Shown here piece after piece: positions 24,944 through 61,702 of a stretch of 64,000 nucleotides of DNA. Positions within the stretch are counted from its first letter, which is position 1. Each line of letters opens with the position of its first letter. This DNA comes from a virus. The notes under the pieces were generated by a model that was not told where the DNA came from, searched no databases, and saw nothing but the letters and a program-made list of their open reading frames with translations. Location: IMG/VR virus record IMGVR_UViG_3300032046_000014, positions 20,304 to 84,303 of that record; one strand, written 5' to 3'. The translations under genes and the position numbers were made by a program.

Positions 24944-26158
24944 CTACTCCTTCAAGTCTCTTATTTTGCCTTGGACATTGAAACGAGTGCAGATTATGTC
25001 TCCCATGGTCCTGTACAGGCCCTTGTCTCCGATGAAGTTGATTGCGAATGGGTTGCCGGTGCTGATGCCTGCCTCGAAGTATTGTGTTGGTTTTGCGACT
25101 TTGAAGAGCAAGTAGTCTGTGTCTAGGAAGTAGAGTCTGCTGAGTCCAGCTGGCGTTGCGCTTGGTTGGTCTTGCAGGTTGTTCTTGGTCGGAAGTATGG
25201 GTACTCCGTTGTAGGTTGCAACGATGAATCCGGCTGCGATGCCTTCAATTCCTCTGACTCCGCCGTAGGTTGGGACAACAGTCTTGTATTCGACGAATCT
25301 CTGTTGCGCCTGGAGCAGTCTCTGGACTGCTTTGAGTGTGTCGTATCCGGTTTGGATTATCTTGGGGGTTCCGCCTGCCTTCCAGATCTGTCGGAATATA
25401 TCGTCCAAAAGGTCTAGTGTGAGGCTTCTCAGGCTGCCTTTGGTTGCGTGGTAGCTGATGATGGCGTCTGCCCAGCTGTAGTTTGTGGCGTCTGACCTGT
25501 CTATTGTGGTTCCGTTCACGTACACGTCGTTGCTGACTACGTCTGGTGTGGTGGAGCCATCGGCCATGAAGCAGGTTCCATCTGATTCAACTTTTGCTGA
25601 AACAAGTCTGTCAATTGTTTGGATGTCATTGCCTTCTTGGACTGCTGTAGAGGCAACTCCTTCAGCGTTGAGCATGATGTTGATGTGTTCTGCGTGGTGC
25701 AGGCCCATGTATTCTCTCATCTGGCGCATGACATCGCCGAGTGAGTCGTCGATTCCACCCAAGTATTGTATCATTTCAGCTACGTTGAACGTGTGGCCCA
25801 CGATTTTTGGTTTGCTGTAGAGCTGTTTCCATGTTGGCTTTGTCGTGTCTGGCAATGCAGATCCTTCAGCAAGCCCGCCTGGAGCTACTGTGTATGACCC
25901 AACGGGTGGCACTGGAGCTCTTGCGGTTAGGACACGGAAGCCACTGTGGTCCCATACTGCTTTGGGCAGAAAAGCAAAAGTGTTGGCTTCAAGGTTGAGT
26001 TGTGACCATACTTTAGCGCCGTAGATTGGATTATAGATTCCGCCTTGCGTGGTTAGGATTGGTGCGTCTGCCTTCATTACGTCGGCTACGCCGAGACCGT
26101 AGTAGTATCGTTCCATATCTTCGAGGGTTTTGATTTCAAATATGCTTCTTCCTGACAT
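24944..26158 (-). CDS. Major capsid protein, HK97 fold
   Basis: A 404-residue protein directly after the protease/scaffold gene, as in HK97-type clusters. It shows the family pattern: an N-terminal arm region, FLPKAVWDHSGFRVLTAR, an E-loop-like GSYTVAPGGLAEGSALPD, the spine helix region (DDSLGDVMRQMREYMGLHHA), the P-domain and a late beta segment (GFIVATYNGVPILPT) typical of the A-domain. It is probably made abundantly: compact spacing and a GGGAGAG site precede ATG 26158. Confidence 0.85.
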   Translation of the reverse strand: MSGRSIFEIKTLEDMERYYYGLGVADVMKADAPILTTQGGIYNPIYGAKVWSQLNLEANTFAFLPKAVWDHSGFRVLTARAPVPPVGSYTVAPGGLAEGSALPDTTKPTWKQLYSKPKIVGHTFNVAEMIQYLGGIDDSLGDVMRQMREYMGLHHAEHINIMLNAEGVASTAVQEGNDIQTIDRLVSAKVESDGTCFMADGSTTPDVVSNDVYVNGTTIDRSDATNYSWADAIISYHATKGSLRSLTLDLLDDIFRQIWKAGGTPKIIQTGYDTLKAVQRLLQAQQRFVEYKTVVPTYGGVRGIEGIAAGFIVATYNGVPILPTKNNLQDQPSATPAGLSRLYFLDTDYLLFKVAKPTQYFEAGISTGNPFAINFIGDKGLYRTMGDIICTRFNVQGKIRDLKE

Positions 26159-26160
26159 GC

Positions 26161-28167
26161 TTATGCACTCTCCCGTAAGCGCGCTGCGCGCTGTTGATCA
26201 CTCATGTCATGGACTTTAGTCCATGGCAGCTCATGCAATGTCTGCAAGGTCAATGGTTGGCCGGGTGCAGCTGCACCTGGAGTTCCGGGCGTTTCCGGTG
26301 CGTTGTCGCCTGTGAATGCAGACTTTCTAACTGTTGCGCTTTGGCTCTTCAGAATATCAGCGGTTTTCTTGGCGATGCCATCAACATCGACGGCAGTGGC
26401 GCTCTTCTGTAAGGTTGCTACTGCTTTCGTTAGTTCAGCAACGGCTTTTCCGATGTCTGCGATTCTTTGAGAATCGCTCTTTTTGCGATGTTCCTCAATG
26501 TATCGTTTCAAGCCTGGAGGCATTTTGCCTTTTGCTTCAAGTCCCTCGAGAGTGGAGATGACTTCTGGGTCGTTGAGCATTTTCTCGTCTTCAGGAGGAT
26601 ATGGTAATTTGGTTTTGTCCTTGCCAGCAGCATCCTTAGCATCCTCGTCTTCTTCGTCCTCTTCCTCTCCTGGTTTCGCAGCAGCCTTTGCGGCGCCTTC
26701 TTTCTCGCCTGGCGGTGGATATTTGCCTGCCTTACAGCCAGCATCTTTGACTGCACCTTCCTTCGCTGCACCCTCTTTCTCGGGTTTCTCTTCATCCTCT
26801 GGTTTTGCAGCTTCTTTCTCTGGCTTTTCCTCTTCACCTGGCTTTACTTCAGCTTTGACTGCTCCCTCTTTTCCTTCAGAGGGCAGCATTGCTTCGAGCT
26901 CCTTGATTTTGGAGCGCATGGTCGCTATGTTCGGTCCCGTTGCAGAAGTTCCTGTTACTCCGCCTGTGTTTGGTCCTGTTCCAGTTCCTACGATTCCTGG
27001 TGTTCCAATTGTTTTTTCTACTTTGTCGGACATTTTTGAGTCCTCAGTGGTTGATGTTCGACCTTCTATGTTTTTAAGTGTTATGTTTGACTGAGCGCTA
27101 GACGGTTCGCCTGACTGTGACGTTTCTGCCTTTATCATGTCAACCCTACCGAGACTATCGCAAGGCACGAGTGCAAGATCAAATAGGGGCCTATAAGCAT
27201 CATGAGGCCCTCCTTCGTCGCCGAAGATGAATTCAAGTTTGTCCCAGAGCTCATTAGGCAATGCTTTGAGGATTCGTGTCTCAATATGTCTCCGCATAGG
27301 ATTGTCAGTATCCATTTTTATGAGCAAGTCAAAGTCGTTGCCTTCTCCTTTCTCCACACTGCTTCCGACTTGGCACACGAATTCTTTGCGGATGATGAGG
27401 CTTTTGCCCATGAGGTTCGGCAGAAAAGACAGCTCCTTCACGAGTTTCTCGCTGTTCTTCAGTTCTGCGCTTTTCTGCAGGAACATTTCTTCCGTGATGA
27501 GCCCATGGTCCAAGTAACTTTTGAGAACCTGGAACCCGCTCTCCGTGTTCTTGCCACGCTTGCAAACCGTAATCTCGTAAAGTTCAAGATCATCAATCTT
27601 CCAGAACGCGCCCGAACGTGCCTGCGCTACAAGAGTTTTTCCGCCGAGAGCCCGTCCGCCAATGCTGAAAGCGTTAAGTTCGCCCTTGTTAGCCATTTCC
27701 CAGACTTTGTCAGCGATTTCTATATCATCGCGTAATTCAGCGACCACATAGAGGCCCTTATCGTCGACGTGGCTCCAGTATTTCTTGCCTTCTGAATCTT
27801 CAACGGTTTCTTTGAGAAGGATTTTGCCGATGGTAATGTTGCTGTGTTCCAGGTTGATGTTAGCGTATTTTTCGCCGGCTGCCTTCATTCTGTCCCATGC
27901 TTTCTGCAAGGCGGGGATGGTGACAAGTTCGTTTTGTTTGTCGATAACTTCGACACTGGCGTAACCGTGGATGATTCTGCGTTTGCCGTCTTTCAGAAGT
28001 AATCCTGCGGCTGGAATATCGAATCGTATGTAGGCGGGGACGGGGGAGTCAACAAGCTCTTTCAGCAGAAGTTCGGTGATGGGATGTTCAAGGACCTGGC
28101 GTGCCATTGGGTCTCCGGCTAATGCGCTTTTCTCAAGCTCAGCCAAAAGTGTTGCAGCATTTGGCAT
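26161..28167 (-). CDS. Prohead protease - nucleotidyltransferase - scaffold fusion
   Basis: A 668-residue protein. Residues about 40-215 form an HK97-type prohead protease with His108 (INLEHSN) and Ser168 (LNAFSIGG). Residues about 250-345 hold a pol-beta-type nucleotidyltransferase pattern: VGSSVEKGEGNDFDLLI with Asp278 and Asp280, and a third acidic residue in FDLALVP (Asp330). Residues about 385-560 are a long Lys/Glu/Pro-rich scaffold-like tract, then a coiled, helical end. Protease plus scaffold in one chain is known in phages; the inserted transferase is unusual. It is the first gene after a late-type promoter. Confidence 0.75.
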   Translation of the reverse strand: MPNAATLLAELEKSALAGDPMARQVLEHPITELLLKELVDSPVPAYIRFDIPAAGLLLKDGKRRIIHGYASVEVIDKQNELVTIPALQKAWDRMKAAGEKYANINLEHSNITIGKILLKETVEDSEGKKYWSHVDDKGLYVVAELRDDIEIADKVWEMANKGELNAFSIGGRALGGKTLVAQARSGAFWKIDDLELYEITVCKRGKNTESGFQVLKSYLDHGLITEEMFLQKSAELKNSEKLVKELSFLPNLMGKSLIIRKEFVCQVGSSVEKGEGNDFDLLIKMDTDNPMRRHIETRILKALPNELWDKLEFIFGDEGGPHDAYRPLFDLALVPCDSLGRVDMIKAETSQSGEPSSAQSNITLKNIEGRTSTTEDSKMSDKVEKTIGTPGIVGTGTGPNTGGVTGTSATGPNIATMRSKIKELEAMLPSEGKEGAVKAEVKPGEEEKPEKEAAKPEDEEKPEKEGAAKEGAVKDAGCKAGKYPPPGEKEGAAKAAAKPGEEEDEEDEDAKDAAGKDKTKLPYPPEDEKMLNDPEVISTLEGLEAKGKMPPGLKRYIEEHRKKSDSQRIADIGKAVAELTKAVATLQKSATAVDVDGIAKKTADILKSQSATVRKSAFTGDNAPETPGTPGAAAPGQPLTLQTLHELPWTKVHDMSDQQRAARLRESA

Positions 28168-28267: not shown

Positions 28268-28678
28268 ATGAAAGATGTTATCGGCATATTAGTTTGCAAC
28301 AGCCAGAAAGTGCTTGACCATAAATTGAAGGATGGTAAAAAGAGCGAACATTGCTATTGTTTTTGGAACATGACTCGTTTTCCTCGACGAATTCTCCAGC
28401 GCGTATTTCCTGAATCTATAGGTGCAGTTTCTGAAGCAGCAAAAGCGCCTGGCTTCGGATGGTATGCTGAAGATGATATAGGGGTTCCAGAGGATTTTGA
28501 GGTTCACCTTTACTTCGCAGTGAAGGGGCAAGTGCTGGGCTATTTTGTTTGTAAGGCAATGGGAGAACGGCATAGAACGCAGGAATTAAGATTTCACAGT
28601 GAATCATGGACTCCGATAAAACCAGTAACTATCAAGCCGAGCCAGGGATTCCGATACTTCAAGCATGACTTAGACTAG
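28268..28678 (+). CDS. ASCH/PUA-like hypothetical protein
   Basis: A 136-residue protein in a plus-strand island. A strand-rich centre (DFEVHLYFAVKGQVLGYFVC) and a late FHSESWTPIKPVTIKPSQGF ending in RYF resemble ASCH/EVE-type RNA-binding barrels in which a W-x-P-hh motif precedes a final Gly-Phe-x-Tyr-Phe. CTTTTTAGTC (28231-28240) could be its TATA, giving a nearly leaderless mRNA. The assignment is tentative. Confidence 0.45.
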   Translation: MKDVIGILVCNSQKVLDHKLKDGKKSEHCYCFWNMTRFPRRILQRVFPESIGAVSEAAKAPGFGWYAEDDIGVPEDFEVHLYFAVKGQVLGYFVCKAMGERHRTQELRFHSESWTPIKPVTIKPSQGFRYFKHDLD

Positions 28679-28707: not shown

Positions 28708-29238
28708 GTGAAAAATACGGAACGTAAACTGAAATATCACTTGTTCCCTGAGCAAATCGTAAACTATGTTTGGCAAGGAAAGCAGTGTTCAGTACAAGGT
28801 ATTCATAAAGCCCTAGATATGGAATATGATAAAGAACACAAAACTTGGCTCAGATTTGAACAAAAACCTGACGACAGAGGATACTTCTGGTGGGAGGAAG
28901 CTGATCTTATTGCGATAGTTAAAGGGCAGAGATCATTCTCATGTGACATTTGCCGAAAAACATTTTCGCCAAAGAGAGTAGGCTTTCTTTCTTCCCAAAG
29001 GATAGTCGAACCTGCTTACTATGTTGGGTTACTCGATATGGAGGGTTGTACTCCTCCACCTTGGGGATACACTACTAAAATCTGCTTAGACTGCGCTTCG
29101 GAAATCTTCAAGGATGCCATAGTTTACAAGTGTGATCCAGATTCGGACTGGTGGTGCGGATGGCATTCAGAAGCACCGAAAATAGATAGACCAAAAATCA
29201 AGCTGATAGACGAATTATTCCCTTTTCTTTGCGGTTAA
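28708..29238 (+). CDS. Zinc-ribbon-containing hypothetical protein
   Basis: A 176-residue protein. CDICRKTFSPKR near residue 77 and ICLDCASEIF near residue 128 are CxxC pairs flanking a Trp/Pro/Tyr-rich insertion. GTG 28708 is 25 bases after CGCATTTAATGG, a TATA-like element, so a leaderless message is likely. No match to a known enzyme. Confidence 0.5.
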   Translation: MKNTERKLKYHLFPEQIVNYVWQGKQCSVQGIHKALDMEYDKEHKTWLRFEQKPDDRGYFWWEEADLIAIVKGQRSFSCDICRKTFSPKRVGFLSSQRIVEPAYYVGLLDMEGCTPPPWGYTTKICLDCASEIFKDAIVYKCDPDSDWWCGWHSEAPKIDRPKIKLIDELFPFLCG

Positions 29239-29289: not shown

Positions 29290-29577
29290 TCAATTCCGCA
29301 GAGATAGGAGCTGCTGGCGCACCGCCTTATTCCATCTGAGCTGCATAACGGCTCTGATGCTGATTTTCTGCATCTTAGAATTGCCACAGATAGGACATTT
29401 GTTTCCCCGACCAGTTTTATGGAAAAGAAATGGTATGGCATGACCCTTTTTTGAACTGTCCTCACAAGTACAGCATTTATAGACTGACAGTTTGTCTTGC
29501 ATTCGCCGACCTAGAAACTCCGTGGTTTTCGGCGTTTCCCTCTCCATTCCTAAAAACTTCTTCAAACTCATCTTCAT
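29290..29577 (-). CDS. Zinc-ribbon protein
   Basis: A 95-residue basic protein with CCTC near residue 36 and CPIC near residue 61, a classical zinc ribbon, followed by a basic helix (RAVMQLRWNKAVRQQLLSLR). ATG 29577 overlaps the stop of the giant protein (ATGA), so it is co-translated with it. It probably binds nucleic acid or the giant protein; unknown. Confidence 0.55.
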   Translation of the reverse strand: MKMSLKKFLGMERETPKTTEFLGRRMQDKLSVYKCCTCEDSSKKGHAIPFLFHKTGRGNKCPICGNSKMQKISIRAVMQLRWNKAVRQQLLSLRN

Positions 29578-32500
29578 CCCTCTATCGGCTTCTTTTCTTC
29601 TCCTGGGCTTTGGACCGGGGCTTCAGTCTCTCCCGCAAGTCTATAGTGGCCATCATCTTCATGTTTAATTGGGTCCATGGGTTGCTGATCGGATGGTCGA
29701 AAGGCAAGCCATCTAGGGCTGCCAGACGCAAGCTTAAGGAGCCGGAAGATCCATCTGCCCCGGAGGAGTTTTCCATAGAAGAAGTATTCGTGGAGATTGT
29801 TTCTTTGGACCCCGTACTTGAACGTGCCTTCTTCCAAAATCTCATAGAAACCACACCTGTTTGTTTCAGCTGCAGATCCTTCTCCGCCGAGAAGCACTGG
29901 TTTACGTAGGCCCTGGACGTCTAGCCAGCCTCTAGGAAACTTTTTGCTGCTCTGTTTAGGAATGGCCGGTTTGGCCGTGGTCATGCCCTTAATGCTGCCG
30001 CTGAAGAATCTCTGAGTTTTCTCCCAAGGATATGTGAGGAAAGTCCAGCCGATCATGCTTTTCGCGTCGCCTGTGTCCTGGCGAGTTTCCCAATGTTCAC
30101 GAAAACCGCCCACGCCCTTCCTTATTTCTTCAGGTTCAGAGTCTCCGAATTCGATGTCTGGCTCTTCAGACTTTGCTAAGTCAGGTTTCAATTGTTCCCA
30201 GACGTAACGTTCAGCCGAGCTTGGGTCTCTTGGTGCAGAAATGGCGTCTCCGGGCGGATTGCCGCCTGCGCTGCTAGGCGGAGAACCTGTGATCTTGATA
30301 TCGCCGGCAGTGTCTGGTTCTATTCTTTTCTCCTTGTTGATCTTGGGTCCATATGGAAAATGATGATGGACGATGAATGTGAAAGCTTTTCCATGCAGCC
30401 ATTCGGCCCCCTTGTAAAACTGGGCGGGATATGGATTGCCTTCCTTGGTCTCGGGCAGCTGAGGTTCAGCAGCTTTTTTCAGTCCTCCAGGCAATACGAA
30501 ACCATCATGTGCAGCGAGCACTGGCTTGTCATATTCTGCTTCCAACGCAATCTTTGACAAAGCTTCCGGCATATCCTCTTGCTTCACGCCCAAGTGTCCA
30601 ACATGGGTAATTATCACTTGGGGCACACCGTTTTTCTTCGCCTGTTTCAGACTATTCAAGATGCTTTGATGCCCATAATCTTCACCATCTTGCTCTCGAA
30701 CGATGTCTCGAGTGAGGCTTGCGCCGTCTATGATCCAGGTTTCCACACCGCCAAGCCACTTGTCACTTATTTCTAGGCAGTCGGGACTATAGAGTACGAT
30801 GCCGTTGATGCGGATGGCGAACGTTTGAACCTTCAAGCTGTGTTTAACTGGGAGCCAGCGGACCTTCACGTTTCCGATTCTGATGGCGTTATAGCTGCTG
30901 TAGAAGTGAAGTTCTCGATGACTCAGTTTCTCAGCGTATTCAGGACGCTGCTCACGTATGTCACGCCATATAGAACGGTGCATGTATATGGGCACGTCTT
31001 CAGACAGAAATTCCAGGCCGTCTATATGGTCCGGATGTGCATGAGTGACGCAGACTGCATCAAGGCGTGTTTGAACCTTCTCCGCGAGCTCCTTGCTTCC
31101 GCAGTCAAGCAGAACGTTCGTACCGCTGTTTTCGAATATGGCGCTTGCATTCAACCTTTTATCGGTGCGACACTGCTCATCATCGCAGTCTTTGCGCGGA
31201 AAAGTTTTCTCTCCGCTTGTACCGAGGAACCGGAGATTCCAGGTTGCAAGCTCAACCGCGTCGGCTGCTGCTCCCCGGCTCGGAGTCCATGTTACAGGAC
31301 CTTGCCGAGTTGATTCTTCGGGCGGCATCTGTTTTTCCGTCGGGTTAACGGGCGGCTTTTCAGACGAAAGAGGCTTTCCCGTTTTCGGGTCTGCTCTATG
31401 GCCAGTCCACGGCGGCCATAACTGTTTCTGCAGAGTGTCTATGCGTTCTTTCAGTTTTTCAGGGTCAGTTGCTGAGGCTCTCACGGTGGCGACCCAACCG
31501 TCTGCTTCTTCATCGACAGAGATTTTGTAGTTGCTGATGCCGATGCTTTCAAACAGGTTTTCTACTTGAGCTTTCCATTGTTGGGCTTTCGCGTATCCTT
31601 CGGGCCCTTTGAAGAAAACATGAGATGTCAATGATGTCTCGTCAGCGCGCATATACTGTAACGGTGTGATTTCATGGAAAGTATTGTCTGCAGGGTCGGG
31701 AACTCTTTCGCCGCCGCCCATTCCAGGAACGCCTATGACCCCACCGGGAGCATAAGTAAATCCGCCATTTGCTTTCGTCAGCTCTTCCTTTTCTAATGGT
31801 GTGTTATGGTTCATTCCGCGTTTTTCAATTTCTCTGGCGATGGCATCGTGAAGAGCTTTGACCGTTGGCTTATCATGCACTAGAGGTTTGCCGCTTTGCA
31901 GTGTGCTCCACCAAGCATGTGTGATTCTGTGATCATCGAGAAGGACGCGGTCATCAATCTTGGCCGGATCATACGTGTCTACGTCCTTGATTTTTGTTAT
32001 GCCAGCTGAACCTTCTGGACCCGTAGAATCTGCGCTGGGCTCGGGCTTCGTTGTCGTAGTCATGATGCCCTGGTCAAGTCTGCCCGGTTCAAACTGCTGT
32101 GAACCGCTGTCAGGATCAGATGCAAACTGTTTCTGAACTTTCTCATCATGCTGTTGAGAATGTTCTTTCCAGTGGACAGGAACTTCACCATCTGTGACTT
32201 TGTAGACTTTGCAAATGTCCTTCTCATGCGTGTAAGCAGCATCGTATTCGGGATCTTCTTTTTCCCAGGGACCGCCGGGCTCTTGTTTCCATTCTTCGAA
32301 GTCTTTGTCGCAGAACCAAGCGCGGCCCATTCCTTCAGCATAGAGTACGTCGACTGTCGGAGGGTCTTCGCAGCGCATGCATTTTTGGCGATTAGCCCTT
32401 TTTTCTATGTAGTCAGAGGCTTTCTTGAACTGGGTGATTTCTTCAGGTGTAGGAAGCGATCGTCCTGGACTAATCGGCGCCAGCATATGCAGATATCCTG

Positions 32501-34643
32501 CTACGTCATCGGCTTTCTGAAGGGTTTGACTGGCCAATTCTTCAGCTGTATCCAAACCGTCTGGCACATTCTTTTCAGGCTGGTACATGGGAACAGCATT
32601 CTGGTATGTGTAGTCGTAACTGTTGTTTTTGACGATTTCCAAGCAGCGAACTCGGAGGATATCCCCCTCAGCTGCTTCTACGCCTGAGACGTGCGTGTGG
32701 CCCATGATAAGCCATTTCTTGCCTTTCATTTCTGCAATACGGTTTGCCGGCAGAGTCTTCGCCTGCGCGTCATTGATGGGGCCTATTGCGCCGAGATAGC
32801 GCCAGCCTTCCTGTTTGCGTTCTTTCTTGACGACGAGGACGTCGATTTCTTTCTGCTTCTTCCATTTTGCCCATCCGAAATTGATGATTCGCTTAGTATT
32901 CCATTGGCTTTGTGCGTCGAAGAGCATGGCGCCTTCGCTGCCCTTCAGGTTGCCCATGCGTTCAGCTGCTTCTGCGGTTTTACTTGGCGGTACAACGGTA
33001 AACTGTTCAGGTTTTATGATGGGCAGATGCACGGTTCCTTTGAATTCTTTTCTGAGCAGTTTCAGTCTGTCTATCATGGGCATGTCCGCGAGGCTTTTTC
33101 CGTCTAACTCGATGATGTCGAAGATCCATATTCGGAGGTTGCGGCCTTCCTCTACCGGGGCCTCCCCATTCAAGTATCCGATTGCTAATGTCCGGTGCAT
33201 CGGCTGACTGTCCGAATACATCATCGCTTGTCCATGGAGGATGAATGATTCGTGGGGCCAATTTTTCAACTCCTCAATAATATGGGGAACACGACTTGTC
33301 TTGTCAAGTCCCCTGCCACTCCAAACTTTTTCTTTGCTCAGCATCATGTCCATGCCGTCAAACTTCTGCTGAACAAGAACATTGGCAAACCTTCTGAGAA
33401 GGGATGGAAGCTTCTTGACGTCATAGTACCGGGTGGCAGGCTTGTTTGCTTTCGGCAATGATGCCTTCGCTATAAGCTGGCCGTCCTCGACAATGAGGTC
33501 GCTTTTGCCGATTTGCTCTGGAGAATGAACGGTTCTGACGGCTTCCTGGTAAGTGGTGGGGTGCATTTCGACTGCTGTTTCTCCGCCGGGCCCTGCAGAT
33601 TCGGGAGTTTGTTTTTCTTCGCTGAACATTTCAGCAGCAGCATGGGCTACTCCGACAACATCTCTCCAGTTGTCGCAGAAGTTCACTCCTAAATCGTCAA
33701 TGTACATGTCGGCAACGGGCTTGCCTAGTATGAGCTCATCATAAGAAATTCCGTTCTTGTCGAGCCATCCTGCAGTGAGCTCATAGTACCGGGGATCTCG
33801 AGCGGTGTAAATGACGATGTTTGCCAGGTCATTAAGGTCTTTCATGCTTTCCTGCGCGAGAGTTTTCGGTTTTGCTTGTGTATAGCATTCTGGAATCGGC
33901 AGGTTAGTGTCGGTGTCGGCTATTGTGCCATCCAGGTCGACGGCGATTGTGAGGTCTTGAGTGTCGCTTTTCCATTCAGGCGTCGGGAAAAAGACTTGTA
34001 CTCCTCGCTGGTACTTGTAGGATTGTGGAGTTTTGAAGCGGTTGAGAATCTTGAGAGTGTAGGCGTAGAGCATGTTGGCGTCGGGCCACCATCGGGTTCG
34101 CTCTTTGTCGCTGATCTTGTGCTGGGGCTGGAGCTTCTTGAACTGCTCGAGCGTAATGGGCTCGATGTCCGTGAATTTGAGAACTCCATAGACATATTCA
34201 TCGTCGGCCCAGTAGAGCGGTTTGTTGAGCATGCCGCTGTAATTGCGGCATTTTACAGTGAGACTTTTTTCGCCGTTCCAGATCATACGTGCATGGGGCG
34301 GGGCAAGATAAACGCTTTTGGCGTTTATTTGTGAAACTGTGCTCTTGAGACTTTGAACAGTGCTTTTGCCCACGGTCACGCCGTCTAGGTCATCGTAAGT
34401 TTTATGGATGAAACCGCGTCTGTCCATTTCTGCTTGGAGCAACCAGTGATAATCAACCAGATCCTCTATCGACCAGCCTGGCACCGCGTCTGGCACATCT
34501 TTTTTTCTGCACCAGAGCGCGTGACATAAGGCATGGTCAAACAGCAACTGTTGATCAACAAGTTCTCCAGGAACCGACATGGCAGTTAGGCTCTCCGGCT
34601 TAAATCCTCCTTGTTTACCCGCTGTTTCGTAGGGTCTACCCAT
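29574..34643 (-). CDS. Giant multi-enzyme head-operon protein (HAD, DNA-ligase-like, MBL, LigD-like)
   Basis: Up to 1,689 residues (1,668 if ATG 34580 is used; that start lies just after the portal stop). Regions, by residue: 35-85 helical domain, repeated at about 903-955; 108-215 ASCH/PUA-like (APPHARMIWNGEKSLTVKCR); 231-330 HAD phosphatase (VDLDGTIAD, YTARDP, YIDDLG); 405-670 DNA-ligase-like adenylation domain with QQKFDG (Lys427), a degenerate motif III (FILHGQAMM), EGAMLF and WAKWKKQKEID; 755-785 zinc knuckle (CMRC, FCDKDF); 1130-1385 metallo-beta-lactamase (THAHPDHIDG, VKHSL, SPDC, ITHVGH, AHDGF); 1510-1660 LigD-phosphoesterase-like end (EYFFYGKLLRGRWIFRLL). Pro/Glu-rich linkers join them. 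Placed between portal and protease, it is probably packaged and possibly cleaved. Confidence 0.75.
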   Translation of the reverse strand: MGRPYETAGKQGGFKPESLTAMSVPGELVDQQLLFDHALCHALWCRKKDVPDAVPGWSIEDLVDYHWLLQAEMDRRGFIHKTYDDLDGVTVGKSTVQSLKSTVSQINAKSVYLAPPHARMIWNGEKSLTVKCRNYSGMLNKPLYWADDEYVYGVLKFTDIEPITLEQFKKLQPQHKISDKERTRWWPDANMLYAYTLKILNRFKTPQSYKYQRGVQVFFPTPEWKSDTQDLTIAVDLDGTIADTDTNLPIPECYTQAKPKTLAQESMKDLNDLANIVIYTARDPRYYELTAGWLDKNGISYDELILGKPVADMYIDDLGVNFCDNWRDVVGVAHAAAEMFSEEKQTPESAGPGGETAVEMHPTTYQEAVRTVHSPEQIGKSDLIVEDGQLIAKASLPKANKPATRYYDVKKLPSLLRRFANVLVQQKFDGMDMMLSKEKVWSGRGLDKTSRVPHIIEELKNWPHESFILHGQAMMYSDSQPMHRTLAIGYLNGEAPVEEGRNLRIWIFDIIELDGKSLADMPMIDRLKLLRKEFKGTVHLPIIKPEQFTVVPPSKTAEAAERMGNLKGSEGAMLFDAQSQWNTKRIINFGWAKWKKQKEIDVLVVKKERKQEGWRYLGAIGPINDAQAKTLPANRIAEMKGKKWLIMGHTHVSGVEAAEGDILRVRCLEIVKNNSYDYTYQNAVPMYQPEKNVPDGLDTAEELASQTLQKADDVAGYLHMLAPISPGRSLPTPEEITQFKKASDYIEKRANRQKCMRCEDPPTVDVLYAEGMGRAWFCDKDFEEWKQEPGGPWEKEDPEYDAAYTHEKDICKVYKVTDGEVPVHWKEHSQQHDEKVQKQFASDPDSGSQQFEPGRLDQGIMTTTTKPEPSADSTGPEGSAGITKIKDVDTYDPAKIDDRVLLDDHRITHAWWSTLQSGKPLVHDKPTVKALHDAIAREIEKRGMNHNTPLEKEELTKANGGFTYAPGGVIGVPGMGGGERVPDPADNTFHEITPLQYMRADETSLTSHVFFKGPEGYAKAQQWKAQVENLFESIGISNYKISVDEEADGWVATVRASATDPEKLKERIDTLQKQLWPPWTGHRADPKTGKPLSSEKPPVNPTEKQMPPEESTRQGPVTWTPSRGAAADAVELATWNLRFLGTSGEKTFPRKDCDDEQCRTDKRLNASAIFENSGTNVLLDCGSKELAEKVQTRLDAVCVTHAHPDHIDGLEFLSEDVPIYMHRSIWRDIREQRPEYAEKLSHRELHFYSSYNAIRIGNVKVRWLPVKHSLKVQTFAIRINGIVLYSPDCLEISDKWLGGVETWIIDGASLTRDIVREQDGEDYGHQSILNSLKQAKKNGVPQVIITHVGHLGVKQEDMPEALSKIALEAEYDKPVLAAHDGFVLPGGLKKAAEPQLPETKEGNPYPAQFYKGAEWLHGKAFTFIVHHHFPYGPKINKEKRIEPDTAGDIKITGSPPSSAGGNPPGDAISAPRDPSSAERYVWEQLKPDLAKSEEPDIEFGDSEPEEIRKGVGGFREHWETRQDTGDAKSMIGWTFLTYPWEKTQRFFSGSIKGMTTAKPAIPKQSSKKFPRGWLDVQGLRKPVLLGGEGSAAETNRCGFYEILEEGTFKYGVQRNNLHEYFFYGKLLRGRWIFRLLKLASGSPRWLAFRPSDQQPMDPIKHEDDGHYRLAGETEAPVQSPGEEKKPIEG

Positions 34644-36538
34644 CTTTTCTTCTTCGGGATTGAAGCGGTCGGGTTCAGGATGCCCGGTGTTGCAGTGGTG
34701 ACGGGAGAGTCTTCTTTAGCAAGGATCGGTTCCGTTGTTGTTTCTTGCAGTTTTGGGTTAACGAAGCTTGTTTTCTGGGGGCCATGATACCATTGTTCTT
34801 TATCTTTCCAGAAGGCGCCGCAGAAATCTTCAGGGTCTTTCACCCAGCCTTTAACCCGGACCTTGCAGGCTTCCATGAAAGGATCTATAGAGGAACTTGA
34901 CTTCGAAAGCAATATTAGATCATCTATCATGGATTTGTTGTAGTTTTCAGCTTGTTGCCCCGCAGGTTTCGGCGCGAAGCGTCCGGTTCTTTCTCGAATT
35001 TCGCCGGTGGCTTCAGATTCGATGCCAATTTTCTCGGGCGGTGATGGCGTACTCTTTTTACCTTGTTCTGTAAGTTCTCCTTCTCCAGAAACTTCCAGTT
35101 CCCCTCTTTCGTTGAGGCGAACATCAAAACCTGCTTTCAGCCAAGTGAAGGCAGTGTTTGCTTTGATTTGGCCAATCTCGGTGAGCCGCAGTTCATCTCG
35201 AAGTTCCAGCGTGTTAAACCTGAATTTCCAGTCTGTAATGTTGAAGGCTGGAAACACACGGTTGTTCATTATGTCCTCGCGGTTCTTGTGATGCTCGCGT
35301 ATGGCACGGTCTTGGACTGTGACCTGCATCATAGGTGTGGTGCCTGCTTTGCCTGATTCTATGTCGCCTGTGAAGACTGGCTGGGCCGAGTACACGGCGC
35401 CGCAGGCTGCTCTCCAGAACTTGTAGAATTCGATGCTTTGCATGCGTTTGAAGTCTTCCATGACTCGAGTGACTTTGATGGGGTCTTTGCTAGCTATCAT
35501 CATAGTGCGGACTTTCTTGCTTGTCCGGAATCTGCGGAGCACGGGGTCGTAGACTCGTTTGCGCAAGGCTTCCTGCTCAAACTGATCCATGATCTCGTTG
35601 ACTTCTTCCTGTTCGTGGCCTGGAAAATTGACGATGCTGCCCAGTTTTCCTTCAGTATAGAGTTCTATGTTGAAGTCATCCATTGCCTGTATGCTGAGCA
35701 GGATTTTCCAGAGGCAGATGATTCTGCTTTCACCATACAAATTCGGTACCCAGCGGTCACTGCTGCCGTGGATAACTTCGTCTTTGGTGAATCTTGCTTT
35801 GACAGCTCCGCCCACACGCTGCACGTATGCTGTTTTCTGCAATGGTTTGCCGCAGACTAGACAGGTAACTGTTGGAGGCGCATAGACAAAATCTGGTTTC
35901 CAGCATTCTGGACAGAAAAGCTGGTTAGGATCTCCGATGTGGCCTTTATCATCGGCAACAACACGGAAGTATCGCGGGTCTTCCACGTTAAGTTCAGCCG
36001 GGATCTTGAGTAGTTCACTGGCTTTCTCGGGTTCGGGGTTGATCACATACTTGTAGCTGATAGTCATGAAATAGTTGTCCAAGCTCAGGTCATACATCAG
36101 CGTGCTCTTCAAGAGTTCATAGAAGGTGTTTTCCTCATTTGGTTTCGTCAGCAGTTCCAGGGCTCTTTGCTCCTGTTCCGTGTCAGGAGGCACGAGTGAT
36201 TCTTTGTCCTTTGGACATTTGTTGTCAGGCGGCGGATCCTTGAATTCCTTCTTGCATTTTGGACATTTGCCGATGAAAGCAGGTTCTAAACGCCAGCCGG
36301 GACTCATGGTTTCACGGATGATTGTGCCGAAAACATTCTTCAAAACCCAGTGAGTGCGCGCGATCAGCATGAGCTCTTCGAAGTTGTAGATAGGCTCACG
36401 TATCTTGTAGCTAGGTTCCCATATGTATTCCGGAATTACTGTACGGTCAGCTTTGCGGATTTCCTTTTCAAACTCGGTCAACGGCGCAGTTGCCTTGACC
36501 ATTACTTCGGCTTTTTCAACAATGTTTTCCCATGGCAT
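34586..36538 (-). CDS. Portal protein with inserted zinc knuckles
   Basis: A 650-residue protein from ATG 36538, nine bases after AAGGAG; an in-frame ATG at 36568 lacks a site. It has the portal stem/wing pattern: VLKNVFGTIIRETMSPGWRL, EVIHGSSDRWVPNLYGESRI, LWKILLSIQAMDDFNIELYT, GKLGSIVNFP and the clip/crown helices after it. Two Cys pairs are inserted in the N-terminal half (CPKCKKEF with NKCPK; CPECW with CLVCG), an addition not typical of phage portals. The portal forms the dodecameric DNA gate. Its 3' end overlaps the giant gene's longest frame by 58 bases. Confidence 0.8.
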   Translation of the reverse strand: MPWENIVEKAEVMVKATAPLTEFEKEIRKADRTVIPEYIWEPSYKIREPIYNFEELMLIARTHWVLKNVFGTIIRETMSPGWRLEPAFIGKCPKCKKEFKDPPPDNKCPKDKESLVPPDTEQEQRALELLTKPNEENTFYELLKSTLMYDLSLDNYFMTISYKYVINPEPEKASELLKIPAELNVEDPRYFRVVADDKGHIGDPNQLFCPECWKPDFVYAPPTVTCLVCGKPLQKTAYVQRVGGAVKARFTKDEVIHGSSDRWVPNLYGESRIICLWKILLSIQAMDDFNIELYTEGKLGSIVNFPGHEQEEVNEIMDQFEQEALRKRVYDPVLRRFRTSKKVRTMMIASKDPIKVTRVMEDFKRMQSIEFYKFWRAACGAVYSAQPVFTGDIESGKAGTTPMMQVTVQDRAIREHHKNREDIMNNRVFPAFNITDWKFRFNTLELRDELRLTEIGQIKANTAFTWLKAGFDVRLNERGELEVSGEGELTEQGKKSTPSPPEKIGIESEATGEIRERTGRFAPKPAGQQAENYNKSMIDDLILLSKSSSSIDPFMEACKVRVKGWVKDPEDFCGAFWKDKEQWYHGPQKTSFVNPKLQETTTEPILAKEDSPVTTATPGILNPTASIPKKKRWVDPTKQRVNKEDLSRRA

Positions 36539-36639
36539 TATTTTTTGCTCCTTTTGATGTTGCTGCATGTAACGCAGCCTAACCCGTATTCACTGCATTT
36601 TCTGCAGAGGTCACGGTTAATCACCTGGCGTTTCATCAT
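36538..36639 (-). CDS. Tiny zinc protein upstream of portal
   Basis: A 33-residue protein (MMKRQVINRDLCRKCSEYG, then CVTC) with two CxxC pairs. ATG 36639 overlaps the preceding stop, and its TAA overlaps the portal ATG (TAATG), placing it firmly in the operon. Too short for most gene finders. Confidence 0.5.
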   Translation of the reverse strand: MMKRQVINRDLCRKCSEYGLGCVTCSNIKRSKK

Positions 36640-37973: not shown

Positions 37974-38173
37974 CGTTCCAGACTCCTGACAGCCAATTTC
38001 ACAGACAGCCTGTTTTTGTCAAACATGATTTTATATATGATTCCGTTGCTCGAATTCCAGTTTGCGTCAATAATCTTGCCTATTTTCAGGCCCGCATCAT
38101 CAAGAATGGGCTTTCCAGTCATGGACAAGGCGAATTCTTCAAGTTCTTTCTGCATCATCTTATGCGCAATCAA
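37970..38173 (-). CDS. PRC-barrel-like small protein
   Basis: From TTG 38173, overlapping the terminase stop (TTGA), the product is 67 residues; ATG 38158 is an alternative. SMTGKPILDDAGLKIGKIID and GIIYKIMFDKNRLSVKL fit the two-strand PRC-barrel pattern (GKPV-x-D-x2-G-x2-IGKV). Its last residues (VKLAVRSLER) echo the terminase C-terminus (VKLAIRSVDF), and the DNA there is also similar, hinting at a small local duplication. Confidence 0.5.
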   Translation of the reverse strand: MIAHKMMQKELEEFALSMTGKPILDDAGLKIGKIIDANWNSSNGIIYKIMFDKNRLSVKLAVRSLER

Positions 38174-39666
38174 AAGTCTACACTCCTGATAGCCAATTTC
38201 ACAGGCGGCTTCAATATGCTTCGCAGCATGAGCCCACAACTCTTGGGATAGTCATCATGCTTATCGTAGCCTTCCGGCGCGGCCAAATGCAGCATGTTGC
38301 CCTTCCAGAGCATGTTCAGGTCTAGGAATTCTCTGATAAACCTGTCTCGTTGGCGACGCTGGCGTCTGGCAATTGCTTCATTGATACTGGGAAAATCTAT
38401 GAGTTTCTTTCTGAAGCAGTTAAGCATGAGTTTGCTTGTGATGTCTTCTTCGCGTATCTCGTTTGTTCGGATGCCCTGGATGTCCAGGCGAGCTCCGCCG
38501 CCGGGCAGATTACGCCATTCTTTGCGGAAGTAATCCAGCACAGGATCTCCGACGCCGGCACTGTCTATGCAGATCTGCCGCGCGCCCAGTTCCAGGCATC
38601 GTTGAGCTACATGCTGGCTTTGCACTGGATAGTCTGTGCCTTCAAACTCCATCCATTCCAGAATATGGGCCATGTCACCTTCACCATAGCCGAAGGTGAT
38701 GACGCTGCGGTCGCTTTGTTTTGCCACATCCCAGCCAGCATAAATGTTGAACACTGGCTTTCCATCAACCATCGGTACTACGAGAGGCTGTTTCCTGCTC
38801 ATGTCCTGCAACGTTTCCAGTGTGGTGAATTTGTCAATGCCTAAAGCCCATTGCAGCTCGTACTGAGTTCGGAACCCGATGCTTTCCGGACCCAGTCTTT
38901 CACGTTCATTCTCCACGAATAGAGCGTATCGTTTGTTCCATCGGCTTGCTTCGTGGCAGTCGACACGTGTAATATTGCTGCGGTCTTCCCGTTTGGTACA
39001 GGCATCATAGAAGTAGCTGTTGATAACCACGTTTTTCGGTGTGCCATCCAAGATGCGCGCTCCACCTACAGCAGCGCTCATGGGGAATACTTCCTGCGTC
39101 ATCTTCAACGGGTCCACATCTTCGCTTTGTTCGATGACAATGAGGTTCAATGTTTCGCTGGTTACATTGCTTTTTTCTCCTATGCTTAGGCAGCGGATGC
39201 GGGCATCAACGTTTTCAGCAATGTTCCGTATAACGAAAAGTTCGCTATATACTGAATCTCCGGTTATTAGTCTAAGGCCAAGCATATCGAGTAACAGTTT
39301 GATCCGCATATATCTGCGTCTGAGACGTTCCTTTACAACCAGGATTGACTGGCTTGCAGCAGGAGCGAACACGCCAATGCGCACGTGCTGCTTCAAAATT
39401 TTCGTGAAGAAGATGCTGAGCGTGAGGAAGCTTATGCATACCGCCTCTGTTTTGCCACTTTGCCGGCACTGCAGTATGAAGAGTTCTTCTCCTTTCGCGT
39501 TCAAAGTCACACGCATGATGTCATCGCTAACCCTCGTCTCATAAGGGTAAAGTCCTTCTGGCAAGTCTTCTTTGAGAGCGGCGACGATGATCTTTCGTAA
39601 TGCACGACAAATATCCAAGGAACTATGACCGTTATTACTGGTTAGAAGTTCCTGGAGTTGATTCAT
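38170..39666 (-). CDS. terL: Terminase large subunit
   Basis: A 498-residue protein. ATPase: Walker A CRQSGKT (Cys67-Thr73), Walker B LNLIVIEQSED near residue 175. RNase-H-fold nuclease: AGWDVAKQSDRSVI near residue 310, ARQICIDSAGVGDP near 355, and KHDDYPKS near the C-terminus give the three acidic positions. It packages DNA through the portal using ATP and cuts the concatemer. It overlaps the small subunit by 32 bases. Length is normal. Confidence 0.9.
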   Translation of the reverse strand: MNQLQELLTSNNGHSSLDICRALRKIIVAALKEDLPEGLYPYETRVSDDIMRVTLNAKGEELFILQCRQSGKTEAVCISFLTLSIFFTKILKQHVRIGVFAPAASQSILVVKERLRRRYMRIKLLLDMLGLRLITGDSVYSELFVIRNIAENVDARIRCLSIGEKSNVTSETLNLIVIEQSEDVDPLKMTQEVFPMSAAVGGARILDGTPKNVVINSYFYDACTKREDRSNITRVDCHEASRWNKRYALFVENERERLGPESIGFRTQYELQWALGIDKFTTLETLQDMSRKQPLVVPMVDGKPVFNIYAGWDVAKQSDRSVITFGYGEGDMAHILEWMEFEGTDYPVQSQHVAQRCLELGARQICIDSAGVGDPVLDYFRKEWRNLPGGGARLDIQGIRTNEIREEDITSKLMLNCFRKKLIDFPSINEAIARRQRRQRDRFIREFLDLNMLWKGNMLHLAAPEGYDKHDDYPKSCGLMLRSILKPPVKLAIRSVDF

Positions 39667-41039: not shown

Positions 41040-41187
41040 AGAAAAATTAAGAGAACTTCGATTGAGAACAGGCAGACAATGGGCCTGGTACTTCTATCAA
41101 GAACTTGGTTATCGAATAACTGAAGATTTTGAGCAGGAAGAATCGCTGAAGAAAGCAATAGCCAAAATCCTAGATGGGACATGTTGA
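41032..41187 (+). CDS. Tiny helical protein
   Basis: A 51-residue, mostly helical protein (MNEEKLRELRLRTGRQWAWY...) overlapping the nuclease gene by eight bases and the radical SAM gene by seven. Compact overlaps on both sides support translation. Function unknown; possibly a partner of either enzyme. Confidence 0.5.
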   Translation: MNEEKLRELRLRTGRQWAWYFYQELGYRITEDFEQEESLKKAIAKILDGTC

Positions 41188-42071
41188 ATGTTATGAGTGT
41201 TTGGCTAACCGTATCGCCGGAGGATCCGTACCTACAAACAATCGCTGTAGAATTCACTAATTATTGTAATCTGCAGTGTGACCCTTGTTATGGACAAAAT
41301 CCGAGACTCTATAAGGCCAGATCTAAAGGTTACATGACACTTGAAAATTTCCGCGTTTTGCTGGAACAATTAAAGAGGCTGCCAAGACTGAGAATTCTGA
41401 ACCTCAGCTACAATGGCGAATCATTGCTGCATCCGCAGTTTGAACTGATGGCTCAAGAGGCAAGGGCAGTTCTGCCTAACATGATGATAGGGATTGTTAC
41501 AAACGCAACTTTGATTACACGGTCGAAAGCTTTTGCCATTCTTAAGAACTGCAGCAGTATAATTGTCAGCATGCACCATGGCCCTAAGCTTGATGAAGCC
41601 TTAGACGGCCTCGAGACCCTTTCAACTATCAATCAGCAGGCCAAGAACCCGCGCAGCCTATTCGTTAACGTGATGGCTGACGAGTTCAAACATCATGAAA
41701 TCATAGCGTTGGCTGATCGAGTGAAGGAAAGGAAGATTGTTGTGCAGTTTAGGCGAGGGTGGCCGATGACGGAAGACTTGAAAAGGCCAATGCAACATCC
41801 GCAAACTACTACCACATGGACAGATGTTCCCGCGCCTTTTCACTCAGACAAATTCTGTCTGGCGCCCTTCTATTACACGGCGGTCCTCTGGAACGGCGAC
41901 ACGTTGCCGTGCTGTCACATATTAAACGGCGGCGACTTCAGTTTAGGCAACGTCTTCAACACCAGCCTTCTTGACGTTTGGAACGGCCAAGCCTATGGAA
42001 GACTACGGAACGAAAACTACGAGTCATCATGTCCTTGCGTTGCATGTGAAGTTCGTGAGCTTCCGGTTTAG
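41181..42071 (+). CDS. Radical SAM / SPASM-type enzyme
   Basis: A 296-residue protein (ATG 41181 or 41193). CNLQCDPCYG (Cys29, Cys33, Cys36) is the CX3CX2C site of the 4Fe-4S cluster. NLSYNGESLLHP matches the SAM-binding GGE region (here NGE), and GIVTNATLIT is the usual strand after it. The C-terminal part (FCLAPFYYTAVLWNGDTLPC and SCPCVAC) has the SPASM/twitch cysteines for extra clusters. Members modify peptides or other substrates by radical chemistry. No obvious peptide substrate gene is adjacent, except the 51-residue protein. Confidence 0.75.
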   Translation: MLNVMSVWLTVSPEDPYLQTIAVEFTNYCNLQCDPCYGQNPRLYKARSKGYMTLENFRVLLEQLKRLPRLRILNLSYNGESLLHPQFELMAQEARAVLPNMMIGIVTNATLITRSKAFAILKNCSSIIVSMHHGPKLDEALDGLETLSTINQQAKNPRSLFVNVMADEFKHHEIIALADRVKERKIVVQFRRGWPMTEDLKRPMQHPQTTTTWTDVPAPFHSDKFCLAPFYYTAVLWNGDTLPCCHILNGGDFSLGNVFNTSLLDVWNGQAYGRLRNENYESSCPCVACEVRELPV

Positions 42072-43262: not shown

Positions 43263-43268
43263 TTGATG

Positions 43269-43339
43269 TGCACCCGCCGGGATTTGAACCCGGCCGTCAG
43301 CGTGGAAAGCTGAGATCCTAGCCACTGGACCACGAGTGC
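43269..43339 (-). tRNA. tRNA-Gly (TCC)
   Basis: Acceptor GCACTCG/CGGGTGC, D-stem GTCC/GGAT, anticodon stem TCAGC/GCTGA with loop TTTCCAC (anticodon TCC), T-arm CCGGG-TTCAAAT-CCCGG, discriminator A. CCA is not encoded. Confidence 0.88.
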
Positions 43340-43541: not shown

Positions 43542-43617
43542 TGGTGGAAGCTGTGGGATTCGAACCCACGGCCTACTGCTTGCAAAGCAGCTGCTCATTC
43601 CGCTGAGCTAAGCCCCC
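43542..43617 (-). tRNA. tRNA-Ala (TGC)
   Basis: Acceptor GGGGGCT/AGCTTCC, D-arm AGCTCAGCGGAATGAGC, anticodon stem GCTGC/GCAGT with loop TTTGCAA (anticodon TGC), T-arm GTGGG-TTCGAAT-CCCAC, encoded CCA. First tRNA of the leftward operon. Confidence 0.92.
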
Positions 43618-60577: not shown

Positions 60578-60734
60578 AGTAGCAATGTATGCGAAGCGGC
60601 CTTCAGGCCACAAGATCCTGATCGTCCGCGCCGAGTTCTCATGTGAAGGCGAAGCAGCCATCAAGAAAGAGTTCGGAGCTCTCATTCAGAAGTATGCAGC
60701 TGTAGCCACAATCAAGAGGGGACTTGCAACATGA
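60567..60734 (+). CDS. Small hypothetical protein
   Basis: A 55-residue protein (MTFEVAMYAKRPSGHKILIV...) after GCGGAGGAATCCTG. Two strands and a helix (GEAAIKKEFGALIQKYAAVA). It overlaps the ligase start (ATGA), so it is co-translated with it. Confidence 0.5.
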   Translation: MTFEVAMYAKRPSGHKILIVRAEFSCEGEAAIKKEFGALIQKYAAVATIKRGLAT

Positions 60735-61702
60735 CAAGCAAAGAGAACGTGATGCTCGGCATCGACGGTTCACTCACGGATCTGCACTCTCATCCTGACA
60801 TGTACTGGCAAGCTAAGTGGGACGGGTATCGCGGCAAACTCGTATTCCAAAATGGCCACGTCAGCGTACTCAATAGAAACGGCAGCGATGAATGGACGCC
60901 GCGACTGCCAGACGTCGTTGAAGGATTGCAGCAGTTCGCAACTGCTACAGGTGCAGCAAGATTCACCCTCGACGCAGAACTCGTCGTTTTCCAAGAGGGC
61001 CACAGCAGCCTCAGCGCCATAGCGAGCAGATGCAAAACTCAGAACCTACAGATGATACAGCTGAAACTACGCAGACTCTACCCAGTGGACGTCATGCTCT
61101 TCGACATCATCGAATGGGACGACCAGCGCCTCGAGAGCGACCCGCTCATGAACAGGCACAACCTCCTAACATCACTCTACAGCACATACAGCAAAGCAGT
61201 TGCAGGCCAGCCTAAACATGTTCAGCTTACCCCGAACTATCTTGATGTGGACACGGCGTGGAACGAGTGGGTTGTCAAGCGGCATGAAGAAGGACTCATG
61301 GCCAAAGATCCTATGAGTCCATACGTGTATGAGCGGAGCTCCAGCTGGCTTAAGGTCAAGATACGGGACAGCGGCACCTTTCATGTGGTCGGCTACACGG
61401 CGGGCGATGGGAACCGCAGCGACACGTTCGGCGCTTTGATTCTGGCTGACGATGTAGGTGTATGCAGAGGACGATGCGGCGGAGGCTTCAGCTGGGCAGC
61501 ACAGGACAGCACCGCACGCCAGATCCTCCAAGCGTTACGGCAGGCGCCGGTAATCAACCCGCCATTCTCAGAAGCCGAGGTTGGATTGCCCTACACTGCT
61601 GTCGACACGAAGATGCAGGTGAAGGTAGCTTTCCTGAAAACGTTCAATGGGTCCAGCAAGCTTCGAAGCCCACAACTAATAGACTGGTGGATACCACAAT
61701 GA
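60731..61702 (+). CDS. ATP-dependent DNA ligase
   Basis: A 323-residue protein. Motif I KWDGYRG with adenylated Lys29, motif III TLDAELVVFQ near residue 80, PVDVMLFDIIEW (motif IIIa), motif IV EGLMAKDP near 179 and motif V SSWLKVKIRD near 198, then an OB-like C-terminal domain. No N-terminal DNA-binding domain, so it is of the small viral/LigD-type. It seals nicks during replication or repair. It is separate from the degenerate ligase domain inside the giant head protein. Confidence 0.85.
   Translation: MTSKENVMLGIDGSLTDLHSHPDMYWQAKWDGYRGKLVFQNGHVSVLNRNGSDEWTPRLPDVVEGLQQFATATGAARFTLDAELVVFQEGHSSLSAIASRCKTQNLQMIQLKLRRLYPVDVMLFDIIEWDDQRLESDPLMNRHNLLTSLYSTYSKAVAGQPKHVQLTPNYLDVDTAWNEWVVKRHEEGLMAKDPMSPYVYERSSSWLKVKIRDSGTFHVVGYTAGDGNRSDTFGALILADDVGVCRGRCGGGFSWAAQDSTARQILQALRQAPVINPPFSEAEVGLPYTAVDTKMQVKVAFLKTFNGSSKLRSPQLIDWWIPQ

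Follow-up and report, generated by a model that had tools for sequence, protein, structure and literature searches.

A multidomain polyprotein is encoded between portal and prohead protease

We analysed a 64,000-nucleotide stretch of DNA (the window), which covers positions 20,304 to 84,303 of the 84-kb virus record IMGVR_UViG_3300032046_000014, and focused on the gene that directly follows the portal gene of its head operon, a minus-strand open reading frame (ORF; 34643-29574) for a protein of 1,689 amino acids (aa). An initial annotation, made from the sequence alone, had described this ORF as a polyprotein, encoded between portal and prohead protease, that combines HAD, DNA ligase-like, metallo-beta-lactamase (MBL) and LigD-like domains. 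The ORF is real and lies at that place, its dN/dS indicates selection, and near-identical copies occur elsewhere: a homologue in locus L003 is 97% identical and reaches 2,332 aa owing to two inteins, and a truncated copy in another contig is 98% identical. Between the window and L003, dN/dS is 0.13 overall and 0.00-0.18 in individual domains, so that every domain is under purifying selection and the chain is a translated, selected protein; a pseudogene is thereby ruled out. The first ATG of the ORF overlaps the portal gene by 58 nt, and Met22 (34580), just past the portal stop and with GGAG upstream, is a plausible alternative start.

The chain unites domains of disparate activity, namely HAD, ligase, MBL, 3'-phosphoesterase (PE) and helical domains, in the order RGH-HAD-ligase-RGH-MBL-PE, RGH being a small helical domain (Table 1). 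The three motifs named in the initial annotation are all present, the DxDGT HAD site as DLDGT at residue 236, the adenylation lysine in KFDG at residue 427 and the HxHxDH MBL site in THAHPDHIDG at residue 1200, and each is backed by a Pfam or PHROGs domain match. Chance matches are ruled out by the E values together with the recurrence of the domains in relatives. The chain itself was found to lack a protease domain; the prohead protease is a separate ORF, which also carries a polymerase-beta-type nucleotidyltransferase (NTase) domain.

Table 1. Coordinates of the polyprotein, its domains and other features of the window.
Feature	Position	Strand	Evidence
Terminase large subunit	38170..39666	-	phrog_2 E 2.9e-13
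Portal protein	34586..36568	-	PHROG portal E 2.2e-9; vir519 portal E 9e-31
Head-operon polyprotein, 1,689 aa (start possibly Met22, 34580)	29574..34643	-	ORF; 97% identical L003 homologue; dN/dS 0.13
Helical RGH domain copy 1, residues 31-88	34380..34553	-	Own profile, present in 27/45 rows
HAD phosphatase, residues 227-335; DLDGT 236, YTARD 279, YIDDLG 314	33639..33965	-	phrog_1238 E 9.4e-18
ATP-dependent DNA ligase, adenylation domain and OB-like region, residues 400-690	32574..33446	-	Pfam DNA_ligase_A_M E 1.2e-10; PDB DNA ligase E 1.3e-4
Insertion site of the 316-aa intein of L003, ligase motif V, after W591	32870..32871		L003 comparison
Insertion site of the 337-aa intein of L003, RGH copy 2, after I907	31922..31923		L003 comparison
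Helical RGH domain copy 2, residues 899-954	31782..31949	-	Own profile
MBL, residues 1136-1393, HxHxDH and later His and Asp ligands	30465..31238	-	Pfam PF12706 E 2.8e-18; AlphaFold2; Foldseek
LigD-type PE core, residues 1507-1653	29685..30125	-	Own PE profile; ANMV-1 match E 6e-5
Prohead protease, 668 aa, carrying polymerase-beta-type NTase domain	26161..28167	-	Peptidase_S78 E 1.1e-6; head maturation protease PHROGs; own XkdF and NTase profiles
NTase domain in prohead protease ORF, residues 250-347 (VGSS...NDFDLLI)	27127..27420	-	Own profiles; both catalytic Asp present
Major capsid protein	24944..26158	-	phrog_24667 E 5.3e-44; 9/9 phage-database matches are archaeal tailed viruses
Second, stand-alone ATP-dependent DNA ligase, outside head operon	60731..61702	+	Pfam E 1.5e-24; canonical motifs KWDGYR, DAEL, EEGLMAK

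Related polyproteins recur in viral head operons

Relatives were collected stepwise: the C-terminal end of the chain led to a protein of virus ANMV-1, an alignment of both to loci L008 and L009, and the resulting four-sequence alignment to 53 virus loci and 5 genome loci, which form 44 clusters at 80% identity. The domains were tallied with our own iterated profiles over 45 rows, in which the window and L003 are counted separately. The ligase was found in all 45, PE in 38, the NTase in 34, the RGH domain in 27, an XkdF protease in the same chain in 22, the MBL in 4 and the HAD domain in 2. Independently, Pfam detected Peptidase_S78_2 in 18 of 39 chains, a D12 methyltransferase in 10, UDG plus NUDIX in 2 and LigD_N in 2. 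Common domain orders are helical-NTase-PE-PE-ligase-protease and helical-NTase-ligase-PE-PE. By our own count from Pfam and PHROGs, 38 or more of the 44 clusters encode a portal, minor head, protease or capsid domain in the chain or at most five ORFs away. The 22 chains fused to the protease stem from different clusters below 80% identity, which rules out assembly artefacts.

The fusions extend to further enzymes. UDG and NUDIX are part of the chain in both L009 and L012, and in L009 a chain with NUDIX, NTase, ligase, UDG and PE precedes, with a DNA methylase gene in between, an XkdF prohead protease that has a LigD-PE-like domain at its N-terminus (L009:10648-11472). At L021:5651-9665, two overlapping ORFs of 593 and 766 aa apparently share the ligase between them. 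As a small control, we examined six stand-alone ligases of cultured phages (Rhizobium N1_10 and N28_2, Vibrio EniLVp02 and F100, SPBc2 and Alicyclobacillus KKP_3916), which measure 270-449 aa by their coordinates; five have no head genes nearby by annotation, and the KKP_3916 ligase is uninformative, all its neighbours being hypothetical. A whole-protein search of 50,697 phage records returned matches to the MBL and HAD domains only, and single-sequence scans with the ANMV-1 protein and with the second ligase of the window returned no relatives.

We looked for Ku in the 30 records that encode a head polyprotein and found it in none, with Bacillus subtilis Ku as a positive control; most of these records are fragments, and the host may have a Ku. 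Classical Ku-dependent non-homologous end joining (NHEJ) encoded by the virus was rejected on this basis.

PE and NTase domains

Neither the RGH repeat nor the LigD-PE-like end has a direct Pfam match above the curated cut-off in the window chain, and LigD_N has no direct match there at all, with two relatives matching it (best E 1.4e-5). Profiles built from the relatives recovered both regions, the LigD-type PE being a divergent one. The PE core has His, Glu and Arg at the H48/D50/R52-like columns and HEYFFYGKLLRGRW at residue 1618, and a likely N-terminal PE strand, FIVHHHFPYG, lies about 80 residues from the core (about residues 1423-1432). Relatives mostly show His, Asp and Arg at these columns (H/H/D/R over the whole site). 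Loss of the second His in the window was considered and ruled out; the family profile aligns GGFREHWETRQ, in which His and Arg are kept and Asp is replaced by Glu alone. The catalytic Asp pair of the NTase is invariant in 41 of 41 aligned sequences, the window included. Since this NTase sits in the protease ORF, the window has the entire core set, spread over two neighbouring head genes.

Ligase motifs of the window lineage are changed at three positions

The ligase site has K427 in motif I, Q472 in motif III, E570 in motif IV and K593/K595 in motif V, with D432 at the motif I Arg and F575 at the motif IV Lys position. Among aligned family ligases, motif I has its Lys in 44 of 45 and its Arg (KxDGxR) in 33 of 46, motif III its Glu in 43 of 46, and motif IV its Glu in all 47 and its Lys in 45 of 47. 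In the window lineage, Arg of motif I is replaced by Asp, Glu of motif III by Gln (HGQ) and Lys of motif IV by Phe. These replacements were seen in this lineage only; the motif I Arg is also lost in other relatives. The initial annotation had recognised the degenerate motif III, to which the column tallies add two further altered positions. Ligase structures show the motif I Arg and the acidic residue of motif III both in contact with the AMP ribose, and the motif III Glu also with a metal-bound water (PMC6698739). Measured against these features of active ligases, the window ligase keeps the motif I Lys and has lost the motif I Arg and the motif III acidic residue. It matches the NCBIfam model NHEJ_ligase_lig with E 2.8e-11, under the curated cut-off.

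The second ligase, encoded outside the head operon, was seen in the window virus only among the 30 records, many of the others being fragments. Because three motif positions are changed and a separate canonical ligase is present, it is doubtful that the polyprotein copy of the window seals nicks or ligates. That the head ligase drifted while a spare canonical ligase was at hand is only suggested, since this is a single case.

HAD, MBL and helical domains

The MBL domain was modelled with AlphaFold2 (pLDDT 76, pTM 0.79), and the model has the MBL fold. In a Foldseek search of the PDB, its best match was the PhnP-family diphosphatase 6b9v (E 2.5e-14), followed by YhfI, Apyc1 and PhnP and then by RNase Z and RNase J. 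The alignment shows the metal ligands intact, and the hydrolase motif and the fold are thus both present. The modelled fold points to phosphodiester hydrolysis, with small nucleotides as substrates as much as DNA ends. Since the fold is closest to the PhnP, YhfI and Apyc1 phosphodiesterases, counter-defence is as plausible as repair for this domain. It shares the fold of these enzymes but is at most 23% identical to them, and all NCBIfam MBL models score far under cut-off.

The HAD domain is also matched by polynucleotide kinase PHROGs (E about 3e-5) and was found only in the window lineage. The AlphaFold2 model of residues 1-345 is poor except for the helical domain; helices 30-49 and 59-75 of RGH copy 1 are confident, and this copy has a weak Pyr_excise match (E 1.1e-4), just under its cut-off. 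Between the ligase and RGH copy 2, residues 755-779 (about 32307-32381, minus strand) form a Cys-containing stretch (CMRC...C) that is possibly a zinc knuckle. L008 likewise has a Cys-rich stretch after its ligase.

Host, inteins and neighbouring genes

Nine phage-database records match the capsid protein and six the portal protein, and every one of them is an archaeal virus; those that match the capsid are tailed viruses (with 9e-40 for Haloarcula viruses and 5e-20 for Methanofastidiosa vir519). Because all nine capsid and all six portal matches are archaeal, the window virus is most likely a tailed virus of archaea. A profile search of 295 archaeal genomes gave mostly single matches in frames of about 560 aa, which are most likely chromosomal ligases and uninformative on the host.

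The capsid gene comes after the prohead protease in the head operon. Three ORFs separate the polyprotein gene from the prohead protease: one of 95 aa on their own strand, and two on the plus strand (28268-28678, 136 aa, and 28708-29238, 176 aa and Cys-rich), which break the minus-strand run of head genes. In L003, too, ORFs on the opposite strand occur at the equivalent place. The window further encodes, on the plus strand, a radical SAM/SPASM protein (41181-42071), an AAA ATPase (51008-52675) and a C5 cytosine DNA methylase (62256-63209), and on the minus strand a tRNA-Gly (tcc; 43268-43339) and a tRNA-Ala (tgc; 43542-43617).

The inteins of L003 lie at L003:9372-10319 (316 aa) and L003:11268-12278 (337 aa) and match Pfam Intein_splicing (E 8.5e-5, under its cut-off) and LAGLIDADG_3 (E 0.0024). 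Inteins tend to occupy conserved sites. Intein or LAGLIDADG models match other chains of the family too.

Comparison with known systems

Polyvalent proteins (Iyer et al. 2017, PMC5512222) are the nearest known kind. These proteins of phages and conjugative elements likewise join unrelated enzymes in large multidomain chains; they are predicted to be injected, and their genes neighbour late virion genes in portal-terminase viruses. The window polyprotein shares the late-gene setting, with portal, protease, capsid and terminase as neighbours. Domains of the polyvalent network (MuF, MPTase, ART, ArdC-N and others) have no Pfam match in the window chain; the polymerase-beta NTase is shared in type only, and DNA methylases occur in relatives. 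A word search of the main text did not find DNA ligase, LigD or XkdF, ligases being mentioned only as RNA ligases, and the same text describes archaea as poor in polyvalent proteins and nearly all chains above 1,000 aa as bacterial (PMC5512222).

Bacterial LigD (POL-PE-LIG), which acts on DNA ends in NHEJ, likewise joins a PE, a ligase and a polymerase-type domain in one chain. The family differs from it by a polymerase-beta-type NTase instead of an AEP polymerase, for which no family match was found in the window chain or in 39 relatives, as well as by its variable domain order, its fused prohead protease, the failure to find Ku and scores far under the curated LigD cut-offs.

Another close counterpart is the 'ATP-dependent DNA ligase' of ANMV-1 (AJP62006.1), a virus assigned to methane-oxidising archaea. 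This chain of 866 aa has the order NTase-ligase-PE and is encoded directly after the portal gene; the gene product AJP62005.1 (L004:1913-3193), annotated as 'MutT-like phage hydrolase', matches Phage_portal_3 (E 3.2e-22) and is the portal. The PE of the ANMV-1 chain is 32% identical to that of the window, but the chain is shorter, HAD, MBL and RGH domains were not found in it and the motif III Glu is kept. The main text of the ANMV-1 paper does not mention a ligase. The haloarchaeal viruses HVTV-1/2 and HCTV-1/5, the nearest relatives by portal and capsid, also encode very large proteins between these genes; in HVTV-2 (gp113-gp115, L006:9478-17185) they comprise a 1,048-aa protein with HExxH and a zeta toxin/ADP-ribosyltransferase protein. 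The large protein encoded immediately behind the HVTV-2 portal gave no ligase match with Pfam or PHROGs. Mycobacteriophage Corndog is thought to recircularise its incoming genome by end joining; it encodes Ku with no ligase mentioned, in contrast to the window virus, which encodes ligase and PE and in which Ku was not found (PMC4351075).

A proposed role at incoming DNA ends

The core parts of the family, a polymerase-beta-type NTase, an ATP-dependent ligase, LigD-like PE domains, a small helical domain and an XkdF/S78 prohead protease, sit in one chain or in adjacent head genes. In dozens of unrelated viruses the same set is fused or adjacent to the capsid-maturing protease, which suggests, without proving it, that the particle comes with DNA-end repair built in. 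The prohead protease works inside the procapsid. Its presence in the same chain in 22 relatives is therefore a better reason than gene position to expect that the enzymes enter the procapsid. The recurrence of these loci bears out the initial annotation in its view that repair enzymes belong to the head operon; its suggestion that they mend nicks is too simple, because a core of NTase, PE and ligase resembles LigD and fits end processing and joining better. In our best explanation, the polyprotein belongs to a widespread and apparently undescribed class of head-operon polyproteins for DNA-end processing. We found no published description of a fusion between prohead protease and DNA ligase, in a search that most subscription papers lie outside, which leaves novelty unproven.

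The domains, their recurrence, the protease fusion in relatives and the purifying selection are shown; packaging, cleavage, delivery and substrate we infer as follows. The module would enter the procapsid with, or as part of, the prohead protease, be freed during maturation by cleavage at the Pro/Glu-rich linkers and be carried in with the genome; in the cell, the incoming DNA ends would be trimmed, filled, joined or circularised. In the window lineage, the module is split over two genes. Here it would have acquired two further enzymes, a HAD phosphatase and a phosphodiesterase of the PhnP type, while its ligase would have drifted in the presence of the separate canonical one; its main job in this lineage may be end-cleaning or counter-defence. 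A packaged, cleaved and delivered end-processing module is our best explanation overall, one that could equally well turn out right or wrong. Somewhat more tentatively, the family might represent a Ku-free end-joining machine of NTase, PE and ligase that is brought into the capsid by its protease fusion and delivered with the genome, and that is common in tailed viruses of archaea and possibly of bacteria.

Several points weigh against this explanation. We know of no virion proteomics for any member of the family, and none of the members that we found is from a cultured virus. The window ligase has Asp, Gln and Phe where Arg, Glu and Lys prevail, and another ligase is present in the genome. 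The MBL domain resembles small-molecule phosphodiesterases more than DNA nucleases, and Ku was found in none of the 30 records, though these are mostly fragments. The relatives were found with patterns seeded from head-located members, so the counts are neither an unbiased sample nor a census of phage ligases. Lastly, the Corndog enzymes encoded between portal and protease are absent from virions in which the protease is present, so that position alone is weak evidence for packaging (PMC4351075).

The same Corndog result speaks for a late-expressed polyprotein whose place of action is the producing cell, where it would mend nicks and damaged ends of the concatemer so that packaging finishes, operon and fusion serving timing and dosage. 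In the other 29 records, moreover, the head ligase is the only ligase of its family that was seen, and packaging motors are known to stall on damaged DNA. We regard this as unlikely, though worth serious attention: 22 relatives have the ligase in one chain with a protease that acts in the procapsid, and in the window virus the second ligase could serve the purpose. The weak match of the HAD domain to polynucleotide-kinase PHROGs, together with the action of PhnP-type MBLs on cyclic phosphates, would fit an enzyme that repairs RNA, its HAD, PE and ligase-like domains mending tRNA or mRNA cut by anticodon nucleases of the host as T4 Pnkp and Rnl do. This is highly improbable, as the ligase belongs to the DNA ligase family and has an OB region, a kinase domain was not found, and the UDG, NUDIX and Dam partners of the relatives act on DNA or its precursors.

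Two further explanations take up the altered ligase site of the window. If the chain were an injected, polyvalent-type effector against host defence, the MBL would degrade a nucleotide signal in the manner of Apyc1, HAD and PE would remove phosphates, and the NTase and ligase-like domains would transfer nucleotides onto proteins or nucleic acid. In favour of such a role, the MBL fold is close to YhfI, PhnP and Apyc1, 10 of 39 relatives carry a fused DNA adenine methyltransferase, and polyvalent proteins are predicted to act against defence by nucleotide signalling (PMC5512222). MBL and HAD occur sporadically, however, and the conserved core of NTase, PE and ligase, whose catalytic residues are kept in nearly all relatives, fits DNA-end chemistry, which makes this account rather unlikely. 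The three ligase substitutions and the Asp-to-Glu change in PE might also mark enzymes that have worn out and now serve the head as internal scaffold or core proteins. Against this improbable turn stand the catalytic residues kept in most relatives, the intact MBL and NTase sites and a dN/dS below 0.2 in each domain of the window copy.

The packaged end-processing module that we favour leads to a clear prediction, namely that the repair enzymes are cleaved from the prohead protease inside the capsid. The family is, besides, a source of compact enzymes that combine NTase, PE and ligase. Should the module be carried in the virion, injected multi-enzyme proteins would be known from archaeal viruses too, and in a new function, the repair of DNA ends. 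It would then be explained how many uncultured tailed viruses, those of methane-cycling archaea among them, get their linear genomes mended and closed upon entry, at a time when no viral gene has yet been expressed.

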